DNA of 39,455 bases, taken from positions 15,606 through 55,060 of the forward strand of contig NZ_QAII01000038.1 in assembly GCF_003060965.1 (NCBI RefSeq). Direction: 5' to 3'. This DNA is from Caulobacter sp. HMWF025 (GTDB lineage: Bacteria; Pseudomonadota; Alphaproteobacteria; Caulobacterales; Caulobacteraceae). Under the pieces are notes generated by a model. That model worked only from the letters and a program-made list of their open reading frames with translations. It searched no databases and was not told the DNA's origin. The position numbers and the translations under genes were made by a program. Below are positions 2,525-34,553 of the stretch, piece after piece. Position 1 is the first letter of the stretch, and each line of letters starts with the position of its first letter.

Positions 2525-3065
2525 CAGCCCGCTCAATCCCCGTAACCCCGCCGACAAACCCCAACCCGATCAACCCCTTACAAAAATCCCCATCGCGCCA
2601 ATCAAACGCGCTCAGAACCCCCCGCATAATCATCCCACCTCGTCGCGGGGAAGGGCGCTTGGCCAGCGACCGGAGCGGCGGCGGGGTGTGGTCGAGCGGG
2701 AAGCTCTATCGATGGCAGGAAGAGGACACTGTGCTCTTGGGCTGCCAACCCTGTCGTGTCTGGCGGCGGTCGGCCGTGGATCACAGAAACGACGTCACGG
2801 CAGGGGTCGGGCGAGCAGCAGGTGGGCCCGGAAGGGTTCACGGTCCGGGACGGGGTCGCGCCCCGGTCCGCCCGCCGGAGGCTTCAGGGCGGCGAGGCTC
2901 TAACAGGGCTCGAGCGCCGCACGCTTCCGACAGAACGATCACGCGGAGCGTTCAGACTTCGTCGAAACGGTATTCAAAAACTCTTCTTCCGGGCGAGGCC
3001 CGGACGCTCCGCAGCCCTTCCCACACCTTCAGCGGCCAAACCGCGTGAGGCGGAGACCTCATGTC
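2525..3065 (-). repeat. Long non-coding homology block, copy 1 (candidate structured RNA)
   Basis: Read on the minus strand, this block starts one base after the DUF2306 stop codon and aligns by eye over about 540 nt with 33568-34118. Shared islands include a GGTCTC...CACGCGG start, a closing stem GCGGAGCG (3012-3005) with CGCTCCGC (2950-2943), the motif TACCGTTTCG between its arms, and GCTTCCCGCTCGACCA (2704-2689). Hairpins at matching places differ in bases but keep pairing, for example TCCGGGC-ctc-GCCCGGA and CGGGG-cgcga-CCCCG. No credible reading frame spans it. It may be a structured RNA, a 3'UTR element or a decayed mobile repeat. The boundaries are approximate. Confidence 0.6.
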
Positions 3066-3066
3066 C

Positions 3067-3618
3067 CTAGCCGATGAAGATCCGCCACATCAGCCGACCC
3101 GGGAGGAAGGTGAACAGGCCGGCGATCAGCAGGCCGCCGACGAACATCCCCGTCATGCTGCGGCGGTGGGCCGCGACCTTGCCGCGCTTGATGGCGACGA
3201 TGGCCATCGGCAGGGCGATCAGGGTCCAGCCGCTGAGCAGGTGGATGAAGCTGAAGTGCCCGGGGTTGATGACCTTGATGAACAGCGAGCTGGCCGCCGT
3301 CAGGGCCATGGCCGCCACCCAGGTCCAGCCAAGGCGCTTGTGCAGGCCCGTCCCCTTGACCCCGGCCAGCAGGACGCAGCCGATCAGGAAGGCGGTCACC
3401 GCCCCGGCGACATGCAACTGGATGACCAGCGGCGCGGCGGCCAGCAATGACAGGTCCGGTGCCCGGGGGTACAGGCCAAGGCCGTTCAGGAACCGCAGGG
3501 GCGCGGCCATCAGACCGGGGCTGGCGGCGATGATCGCCAGGGTCGCCACAGTCAGGGCCGGAACGACGAAACGTCCGCTCTGGGCCCGGCGCTGCATTGA
3601 CATGTTTTGGTCGGCCAT
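3067..3618 (-). CDS. DUF2306 family membrane protein
   Basis: About 183 residues with four or five hydrophobic segments. One is at the N-terminus, followed by LVIQLHVAGAVTAFLIGCVLL, a helix after GLHKRLGWTW, one around HFSFIHLLSGWTL, and one near the C-terminus. The pattern matches the DUF2306 inner-membrane family, whose function is unknown. Histidines recur at helix edges (QLH, GLHKR, FIH, AHRRSM), a layout that could bind haem or metal; that is inference only. GAGGAG lies 6 nt before the ATG at 3618, whereas it nearly abuts the ATG at 3624, so the MADQN start is preferred. The gene is divergent from a membrane-anchored LytTR regulator 67 bp away, which suggests shared regulation. A long non-coding block begins one base after its stop. 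Confidence 0.75.
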   Translation of the reverse strand: MADQNMSMQRRAQSGRFVVPALTVATLAIIAASPGLMAAPLRFLNGLGLYPRAPDLSLLAAAPLVIQLHVAGAVTAFLIGCVLLAGVKGTGLHKRLGWTWVAAMALTAASSLFIKVINPGHFSFIHLLSGWTLIALPMAIVAIKRGKVAAHRRSMTGMFVGGLLIAGLFTFLPGRLMWRIFIG

Positions 3619-3685
3619 CTTCATCTCCTCGGTACCGGCGGTCTGCGTGTTTCGCCGATGCCTCAGTCCTGGAGCGGCCTGTCCC

Positions 3686-4501
3686 GTGCCTCAATCGCCG
3701 TTACGCCAGTCGCCGCTCCGGTTTCGTGAACGGCTGGCCGATGTCGTTCACGCTTCGCGAACGGCGCTGACCTCCCGCGAGGCCCGGCGCGGCATCGCGG
3801 TGTCGATGGCCGCCGGCGTGTTCCTGGCCCTGATCGGGGCCCTGGGTACGGGGGTGGTGTCACTGCCCATGCGGCTGGCCTACTGGGTGGGCCTCTGCCT
3901 GGGCGGCGGCATTGTCGGCACGGGCGTCAACCAGCTGATCGGCAAGGACGGTCGCGCCGACGATCGCCCCTGGCTCTATGGCAGCCTGCTGTGCCTCGGC
4001 ATCACCCTGCCCTTTACCGGCGTGGTCTGGCTGGTGACCGAGCTGCTGTTCGAGGACAGCCCGCGCCTGGCCGCCCTGCCCCACTATTTGGGTCCGGTCT
4101 TCGTCATCACGGCCGGCATGACCGGCCTGAACTTCCTGGTGCAGCGCAAGCCGCCCGAGACCCATGCCTCACCGGCCGGAGCCCCCGCTCCGCGCTTCCT
4201 CGACCGCCTGCCGCCGAGGCTGCGCGGTGCGACGATCCATGCCGTGGAAGCCCAGGACCACTATCTGCGCCTGCACACCTCGAAGGGACAGGACCTGATC
4301 CTGATGCGGCTGTCGGACGCTGTGGCCGAACTGGAAGGCATCGAGGGGGCCCAGACCCACCGCTCCTGGTGGGTGGCTAGGGGAGCCGTCGAGGACGCCC
4401 GCCGCACCGACGGCCGGGCCGTCCTGACCCTGACCGGCGGAGTCGAGGCCCCGGTCAGCCGCGCCTATGCCAGGGCCCTGCGGGAGGCGGGATGGTTCTA
4501 G
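3686..4501 (+). CDS. Membrane-anchored LytTR-domain transcriptional regulator
   Basis: A 271-residue protein with four predicted membrane helices (about 37-58, 63-84, 97-121, 131-153), a Pro/Ala-rich linker (154-171), and a C-terminal LytTR DNA-binding domain (about 172-271). That domain shows the family signature IHAVEAQDHYLRLHTSKG and the later HRSWWVAR. LytTR domains bind DNA through beta-strands. With no receiver domain, the membrane part probably senses the signal or holds a partner. Codons upstream in the frame are low-complexity. The GTG at 3686 is preferred because GGAG lies about 11 nt before it and the protein then begins just ahead of a typical amphipathic N-terminus. The DUF2306 gene diverges from the same short intergenic region and is the likeliest partner or target. 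Confidence 0.82.
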   Translation: MPQSPLRQSPLRFRERLADVVHASRTALTSREARRGIAVSMAAGVFLALIGALGTGVVSLPMRLAYWVGLCLGGGIVGTGVNQLIGKDGRADDRPWLYGSLLCLGITLPFTGVVWLVTELLFEDSPRLAALPHYLGPVFVITAGMTGLNFLVQRKPPETHASPAGAPAPRFLDRLPPRLRGATIHAVEAQDHYLRLHTSKGQDLILMRLSDAVAELEGIEGAQTHRSWWVARGAVEDARRTDGRAVLTLTGGVEAPVSRAYARALREAGWF

Positions 4502-33368: not shown

Positions 33369-33569
33369 ATGCGAGTTCAGTCCACAGCGATCACCCTGAT
33401 CGACTACCAGCCGGAACACGGCAAACTCTTCGTCACGTTCCATGACGGGGATGAGTACGTCTATGTCGGCGTGCCCGAACGGGTGAGCCGAGCCTTTGCC
33501 CGCTCGGCCTCAAAAGGGCGCTTCTTCCAGCGGATCATCTGCGACCGCTATCCTTACAATCGCGTCTGA
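33369..33569 (+). CDS. KTSC-domain small protein
   Basis: 66 residues consisting of one KTSC domain (named from the lysyl-tRNA synthetase C-terminus). It shows LIDYQPEHGKLFVTFHDGDEYVYVGVPERV, then AFARSASKGRFFQRII and the ending RYPYNRV. The function of stand-alone KTSC proteins is unknown; RNA or nucleic-acid binding has been supposed. GGAGG at about 33356-33360 precedes the ATG by 8-9 nt. Its TGA stop overlaps the start of the long non-coding homology block. Confidence 0.85.
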   Translation: MRVQSTAITLIDYQPEHGKLFVTFHDGDEYVYVGVPERVSRAFARSASKGRFFQRIICDRYPYNRV

Positions 33570-34118
33570 CACGGGGTCTCGACTTCACGCGGGCGGCCCG
33601 CTGAAGGGTGGGGAGGCGGCGGAGCGTCCGGGCCAGACCCGGATGATATTGTTTTGGAGTACCGTTTCGGCCTGGGCCGGAGCGCTCCGCGTGACCGATT
33701 TTCCGGTGAGCCCTCGGGGCGCGGGGTTTTAACCCGCTCCCGACAGAGGCCCCCGACGGGCGGAGGGGGATGCGTCCCCTCCGGACCGCGCGGGCGATTT
33801 CAGCCCGCGCCTGCAGCGCCTGCCGGGACCCTCGCGGGTTTCTCGCCTTCGTCCCGGTTTTTCAGGGAGCCCGGTGGAGATCCGTTGCGAGCGGCGGTCA
33901 TCCAAGACCCACCGACGAGCGCTTCCCGCTCGACCACCCCCGCCGCGCGTTCGGTCGCCAGCTTCGCGCCCTCCCCTGCGACGGGGCGAGGAGAAGTATG
34001 GGGCCGGTCCGGCAGGGGCGGACATGTTTCTGATCGCGACGCTGCTGACGAGGGTCAGGGCGTTGATTTTGCTGGGATCGGGGTATGGATTTGCCCGTGG
34101 GGGAACGGGGATAGACGG
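33568..34118 (+). repeat. Long non-coding homology block, copy 2 (candidate structured RNA)
   Basis: It starts at the KTSC stop codon on the same strand and matches 3065-2525. Islands: GACACGGGGTCTC then CACGCGG, closing stem GCGGAGCG (33619-33626) with CGCTCCGC (33683-33690), GAGTACCGTTTCG between, hairpin GGAGGGG-gatgcgt-CCCCTCC between conserved CGGGCGGA and GGACCG, hairpin CGCGGGC-gatttca-GCCCGCG, and GCTTCCCGCTCGACCA (33921-33936). Pairing is kept where bases differ from copy 1. Several frames run open here only because of the G+C content. Whether it is transcribed beyond the KTSC message is unknown. The end is approximate. Confidence 0.6.
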
Positions 34119-34360
34119 CGCTAGGGGCCTCCCTTCCCCATTTGATGGGGGAAGGGTCGGGGATGGGGGTGACAGAGGGTCCGGATGGGGCACGGCCGGC
34201 CTCTCCTCCCGAGGACTCCAACCGACAGGACGGCTGGCGCCATTCGAACGATCCCGTCTGCCAAGCCTCGAGTGGCCGAAAAGCGCACGCCATTGACGTC
34301 TGTGCAGGGTGGGGGGCAGCCGGTCAGACCGGCCCGCGCTTTGCCCGTCCCAATACCCTT

Positions 34361-34468
34361 GTCATCCCGGCCGCAGCGTAGCGGAGAGCCGGGACCCAGG
34401 GGCCGCCGCACTGCACTTGCCCCTGGGTCCCGGCGCTCCCGCCCTCACGGGCGTCCGGCCGGGATGAC
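34361..34468. repeat. Extragenic palindrome, type A copy 2
   Basis: Outer arms GTCATCCCGG (34361-34370) and CCGGGATGAC (34459-34468). Inner 14-bp stem CCGGGACCCAGGGG (34389-34402) with CCCCTGGGTCCCGG (34420-34433). Nearly the same as 2390-2494. The stretch from 34119 to 34360 between the long block and this element holds no gene I can support. Confidence 0.85.
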
Positions 34469-34553
34469 AAGATTTTTGGCTGTGAGATGGAAGCCCCCAC
34501 AGCCGACCTTTCGAGCGGCGGCAATGGGTGGAAAGCGGACCTAGCCCGCATCT

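Follow-up and report, generated by a model that had tools for sequence, protein, structure and literature searches.

A dispersed non-coding element of Caulobacter and Brevundimonas with a conserved fold and a putative structured RNA core

Here we report that two non-coding blocks within one stretch of Caulobacter sp. HMWF025 DNA (39,455 nt, hereafter the window) are copies of a repeated non-coding element found in Caulobacter, at up to 50 copies per genome, and in Brevundimonas. The original prediction had presented these blocks as a pair; they are instead two of dozens of copies of a repeat that is dispersed and mobile-like. On balance, we lean towards a reading in which this is a non-autonomous dispersed element of the Caulobacteraceae whose core, as judged from the sequences, would be a structured RNA of ~400 nt that is under selection and lies on the opposite strand from that of the original prediction.

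Copy 1 occupies window positions 2525-3065 on the minus strand and copy 2 about 33568-34118 on the plus strand. As predicted, the two are homologous: they align over their full length with MAFFT and match in blastn, in which copy 2 is 80% identical to copy 1 over query positions 359-428 and 71% identical over positions 1-225, a degree of divergence in the first 225 nt that places it in a different subfamily; the middle part between the two is unmatched (loci L021 and L027). The stem GCGGAGCG/CGCTCCGC (8 bp) and the inner segment TACCGTTTCG do not differ between the copies, and three hairpins keep their pairing with different bases, both as had been described. A stop codon precedes or overlaps each block: that of a DUF2306 gene lies one base before the start of copy 1, and that of a 66-codon KTSC gene is overlapped by copy 2 (both genes assigned by Pfam). 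This start at a stop codon, true of both window copies, does not extend to the family as a rule, since 9 of 73 copies have a co-directional ORF of at least 100 codons that ends within -13 to +3 of their start, or 10 when copy 2 is included; adjacency to the stop codon is incidental. Beside copy 1, positions 3074-4501 of the plus strand hold an ORF with a C-terminal LytTR DNA-binding domain, whose listed start overlaps the DUF2306 gene and whose true start is probably further in.

The element is abundant in its own genome (3.96 Mb in 176 contigs), where copy 1 as query gave at least 50 matches at E<=1 and at least 33 at E<=1e-3, itself included, a similarity that is therefore far beyond chance; the search scored 40 of its 83 first-look candidates, and some matches are pieces of a single copy. 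The best of the other copies is 92% identical to copy 1 over query positions 3-541, and eight copies other than copy 1 are 86-92% identical to it across 485 to 539 nt of the query. A covariance model (R1), built from 60 sequences of the region that comprises hairpin HP1 and stem-loop P3 (see below), revealed many more copies in related genomes: at E<=1e-6, and with scoring limited to 54 candidates per genome, it matched 49 of 61 Caulobacter genomes 1 to 50 times each (25 in the own genome), and found nothing in the other 12. Within the Caulobacteraceae, 39 of 149 genomes from 4 of 22 genera were positive (21 Caulobacter, 15 of genus g12 and 3 others). The 8 positives in a sample of 60 genomes from the order were all Caulobacteraceae, and R1 had no match in any of the 47 genomes that represent the order's other families. 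The matches listed from a loop-and-stem pattern scan (80 of 115 stretches) came from Caulobacter, Brevundimonas and Caulobacterales, and also from a few less precisely named alphaproteobacterial bins; this pattern fixed one arm of P3, so its pair counts are biased for that helix. Searches of plasmids, phages and viral contigs gave zero matches with copy 1 or one exact pattern as query, so divergent copies there could be missed. In two genomes, a pair of R1 matches lies on the same strand within about 340 bases (G074:C7:742530-742868 and G051:C23:262322-262632), suggesting that the HP1/P3 part is repeated there in tandem.

What these copies have in common, in addition to sequence, is a predicted fold. 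The hairpins reported originally do pair; the strongest features, which had gone unmentioned, are two long-range helices, P1 and P2, with about 360 and 240 nt, respectively, between their arms. In copy 1 the structured core, read as the proposed RNA, spans 2635-3056 on the plus strand and is included with homologous copies in our alignment A3. There, P1 would be formed by GGGAAGGG (2648-2655) and CCCTTCCC (3015-3022), and P2 by GTGGTCG (2688-2694, adjoining a conserved TCGAGCGGG) and CGATCAC (2936-2942). The arms of P3, GCGGAGCG and CGCTCCGC, lie at 2943-2950 and 3005-3012, and enclose the conserved loop segment CTTCGTCGAAACGGTA (2957-2972) and the hairpin TCCGGGC/GCCCGGA (2988-3004); the terminal hairpin region HP1 follows at 3027-3050. 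The core of copy 2, also in A3, runs on the minus strand from 33577 to 33989, with P1 arms at 33970-33976 (GGGGAGG on the minus strand, CCTCCCC on the plus) and 33610-33616 (GGGGAGG on the plus strand), P2 arms at 33931-33937 and 33691-33697 (CGACCAC and GTGACCG on the plus strand), P3 at 33619-33690 (arms 33619-33626 and 33683-33690) and HP1 at 33583-33607.

Several measures bear on whether this pairing has been kept. Alignment A3 holds 30 of 69 cores, and a second alignment, A2, 60 of 105 candidate sequences. A Watson-Crick-only scan of A3 on the proposed RNA strand compared 8-column windows separated by 200 columns or more; among the 18,205 pairs, P1 came top together with its shifts by one or two columns, and P2 followed. 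With the P3a columns excluded from the count, as they are shifted in half of the rows, P1, P2 and P3 are paired in 97.2% of 689 cells, against 94.0 ± 0.4% in shuffled alignments (0 of 500 shuffles) and 40.0-53.0% when the helices are slid, a control over which the structure is favoured because it was derived from these same sequences. Cells changed on both sides number 37 against 13.4 ± 3.6 in shuffles (0 of 500), and the covariation score is 0.227 against 0.159 ± 0.008 (0 of 500). A weaker measure, pairs with a double change, gave 6 against 4.0 ± 1.0 (31 of 500), and covariation is not supported by the number of further pair types (17 against 19.2, with 500 of 500 shuffles at least as high). 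The arms of P1 change in step between groups, reading GGGAAGGG/CCCTTCCC, GGAAAGGG/CCCTTTCC, GGAGAGGG/CCCTCTCC and GGGGAGG/CCTCCCC, with GGAGGGCT/AGCCCTCC in one Brevundimonas group, as read from its consensus fold; several inner pairs have G-C swapped for C-G, or A-U for U-A. Taken together, these comparisons make a predicted fold with base pairs kept through both-side changes well supported.

In agreement with the expectation that the blocks match no known Rfam family, the Rfam covariance models gave no match in the window at gathering score, and in eight loci ten matches reached E<=1, each of them under its gathering score. Thus, of the proposal of a new structured RNA family, the further copies, the both-side pair changes and the lack of an Rfam match speak in its favour; it has to be amended in that the blocks are a dispersed repeat and the other strand is likelier. 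A coding origin was rejected, as no coding-scored ORF is centred in the first 300 nt of the element in 73 copies; an earlier, cruder ORF caller had given one 56-codon ORF in L052. A start codon after a GAGGTG-like motif near the tail was likewise dropped because the G002 and G006 copies have ATA there.

Does this fold act as RNA or as DNA? Mismatches within the helices bear on this question, and since G-U was forbidden in the folds used for the counts by group, neither strand was favoured by them. In three Caulobacter groups, mismatches that read A-C on the strand first reported, and hence G-U on the other, outnumber the reverse by 48 to 15 (21 to 10 by column type), and in two Brevundimonas groups by 14 to 6 and 15 to 9; on the proposed strand, P1 and P2 in A3 contain 42 G-U cells against 10 A-C. 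These counts weigh on the possible, if doubtful, alternative of a BIME- or MITE-like DNA repeat, whose hairpins would act as cruciforms or single-stranded DNA in transposition, replication or protein binding, any RNA product being irrelevant. Such a repeat would account for an element that is dispersed, modular, lineage-specific and often adjacent to other palindromic repeats, and for copy 1, at which neither a sigma-70 promoter consensus nor a T-tailed terminator was found. However, RNA is a better fit than a symmetric DNA structure for helices whose arms are 240-360 nt apart and change on both sides, and for the excess of G-U over A-C on one strand.

Folding energies point to the same strand as the mismatches. 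The consensus folds of the five groups reach -146, -107 and -145 kcal/mol on the proposed strand against -97, -83 and -104 on the strand first reported (n = 29, 17 and 21), and -129 and -167 against -98 and -136 kcal/mol in the other two (n = 14 and 11); on A3 the values are -53 and -25. For the 431-nt element, the proposed strand is lower in energy in 58 of 63 copies, and in comparison with shuffled sequences the mean z of 12 copies is -2.07 there against -0.74 on the other strand, with the proposed strand lower in 10 of the 12. The two exceptions are both window copies (L001 and L021), copy 1 alone having a z of -1.03 on the proposed strand and -1.66 on the strand first reported. HP1 by itself folds better on the latter in 160 of 185 sequences, and across the 136-nt HP1/P3 region the strands are even (94 against 89 of 185). 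Given that an RNA exists, its strand is thus probably the opposite of the one first reported, and each copy would therefore read toward the gene's stop codon. An RNA in the sense direction of the upstream gene, as originally proposed, would be a structured 3' untranslated element of that gene; we consider this unlikely. It draws on the window copies themselves, both of which follow a stop codon directly in that direction and have their better z there, and on the preference of HP1. Against it, the consensus fold and the imbalance between mismatches point to the other strand in each of the five groups, most individual copies fold better there in energy and in z, and such a stop adjoins the element in just 10 of 73 copies.

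On the proposed strand, just 5' of the core, 68 aligned copies have in common a box composed of AAACC, a run of C/G and then YATAMT, upstream of which the sequence falls into different modules; a similar box was seen by eye in one Brevundimonas consensus. Its YATAMT part reads CATAAT in copy 1 (2625-2630, plus strand) and CATACT in copy 2 (33995-34000, minus strand). The box resembles a -10 element, although copy 1 gave no match to a sigma-70 promoter; we offer it as a candidate promoter and a lead only.

In the reading that we prefer, a putative RNA would be made from the strand opposite to the first-reported one, beginning near the promoter-like box and ending near HP1. P1 would close it, and the nested helix P2 would sit beside P3, the stem-loop that bears the conserved CUUCGUCGAAACGGUA segment. 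The fold would be retained because a partner, either a protein or an RNA, recognises it; as a non-autonomous mobile element, it would spread from one intergenic site to another and be overwritten where copies recombine with or convert one another. As for its mover, neither a Y1 transposase (PF01797) nor a reverse transcriptase (PF00078) had a match in the own genome, and both a RAYT and a reverse transcriptase were rejected on this ground. Among the Caulobacter genomes, Y1 transposases occur in 9 of 49 with the element and 7 of 12 free of it, and reverse transcriptases in 14 of 49 and 1 of 12, respectively. A more specific version, in which a protein-free mobile element has as its core a folded RNA of ~400 nt with its own promoter and is moved by a host function that is neither of these enzymes, strikes us as improbable, and we put it forward tentatively.

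The sites occupied by the element turn over. KTSC is present in 54 and DUF2306 in 55 of 61 genomes, and in the best 30 loci of each, own genome included and weak background matches below 50 bits ignored, no copy adjoins the gene in 29 of 29 KTSC loci and 28 of 29 DUF2306 loci of other genomes. In the closest relative, G054, an element fragment lies 92 nt beyond the DUF2306 stop and runs into the contig end (L117), and two DUF2306 loci have tail-end fragments about 0.8 kb off (L127 and L134). These insertions are lineage-specific. Some sites, among the matches listed, are common to different species. G001 and G056, which are 93.8% and 90.5% identical at two loci, have several occupied sites in common, and the pair L146/L149 is 85% identical across 3.3 kb. 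Where only the upstream flank is shared, flanks are 94.7% (L156/L155) and 93.8% (L160/L153) identical and the elements about 82-83%; in L165/L161 the flanks are 98% and 94% alike and the elements between them differ. L158 combines the upstream flank of L151 with the element and downstream flank of L155, the gene-order break being about 140 nt from the element; the G001/G056 breaks adjoin copies here, the arrangement that would arise if repeats had recombined and brought different flanks together. Seven further G001 sites were compared with G056: the element is absent from the stretch read opposite L164, an HP1-like remnant is kept opposite L154 and L162, a very divergent copy faces L163, and for L148, L150 and L152 similarity stops 87-158 nt short of the element. 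Past a shared upstream flank, L292 of G056 has a very divergent copy with P1-like GGGGAGG/CCTCCCC and a P3-like stem, and so belongs to an older layer of the family that simple searches miss.

These comparisons also bear on a multi-copy family of host RNA genes, useful to the cell, in concerted evolution by gene conversion and with little true mobility, a reading that we regard as quite improbable. Sites common to different species, the greater likeness of copies within a genome than at shared sites, and the conservation of fold and loop across two genera speak for it; a copy number of 1 to 50, the 12 of 61 Caulobacter genomes that have no match at E<=1e-6, and the lineage-specificity of most tested sites argue against it.

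The copies are modular, with variants of HP1, central parts and tails in free combination, as seen by eye. Similarity between sites ends at the HP1 end of the element in L154/L293 (+1) and L164/L291 (-9), but repeats in the flanks obscure the exact site, and the opposite end of the element is modular. The neighbouring genes are unrelated: ten proteins were assigned by Pfam to DUF2306, KTSC, LytTR, class II tRNA synthetase (twice), MFS, M20 peptidase, histidinol dehydrogenase, AMP-binding enzyme and flavin reductase. Relative to the strand first reported, the upstream/downstream neighbours of 73 copies are +/- in 24, -/- in 19, +/none in 11, +/+ in 9, -/none in 6 and -/+ in 4, a tally that is indicative only since the codon-usage caller made ORFs too long and assigned copy 1, at least, wrongly; copies between divergent genes look rare. 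A second palindromic repeat (CTTGTCATCCCGG ... CCGGGATGACAAG) lies past the tails of both window copies, at about 2387-2499 and 34357-34472, and past those of L002, L004, L005, L006, L015 and L016. One copy at a contig end (L012, G000:C50) adjoins clearly A+T-rich DNA, like the edge of a genomic island.

The element has likenesses to several known systems. REP and BIME elements, which go with RAYT (Y1) transposases, are dispersed, modular, palindrome-rich and mostly outside genes, as is the element described here; in contrast to them it is much longer, has a global RNA-like fold and lies in a genome with no Y1 transposase match. HEARO is a large orphan structured RNA with a mobile-like spread. 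As in HEARO, hundreds of nucleotides with a conserved fold occur in many copies that have no protein gene; unlike it, no Rfam family was found at cut-off in the window and eight loci, and no associated ORF was seen. The MITEs Correia, RUP and ERIC, according to PMC2229807, are ~100-200 bp long and mostly have terminal inverted repeats. Our element is likewise non-autonomous, multi-copy and intergenic with stable folds, but has no established terminal repeats or target duplication.

The CIR repeats, attributed to Chen and Shapiro (2003), are found in the same genus. In our literature search, confined to open-licence papers, the element was described in none of the titles and abstracts listed, which is weak evidence of absence, and CIR were the only known Caulobacter intergenic repeats met in it, in the review PMC2229807. 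That review describes CIR of Caulobacter and Brucella as intergenic, multi-copy and hairpin-rich repeats suspected of mobility by a mechanism that is not known. The main text of a C. crescentus transcriptome study (PMC4117421) does not contain the word 'repeat'. That the element is a long form of these CcrM-associated repeats is very improbable: both are intergenic and multi-copy in Caulobacter with two hairpin arms, but CIR, as described in PMC2229807, are ~110 bp with a conserved GANTC in the hairpin loop, against a core of ~400 nt with long-range helices, and any GANTC occurs in the first 440 nt of 17 of 83 copies, at differing positions, and in the first 500 nt of 0 of 30 own-genome loci.

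In Caulobacter, a leading model for the bacterial cell cycle, a genome can thus hold as many as 50 copies of a large RNA-like fold that is conserved and for which no family match was found, and copies adjoin gene-order breaks between species, as between G001 and G056. If transcribed, the core of this element would represent a new family of large structured RNAs that is dispersed and replaced in the manner of a mobile element and could be studied in tractable laboratory strains.
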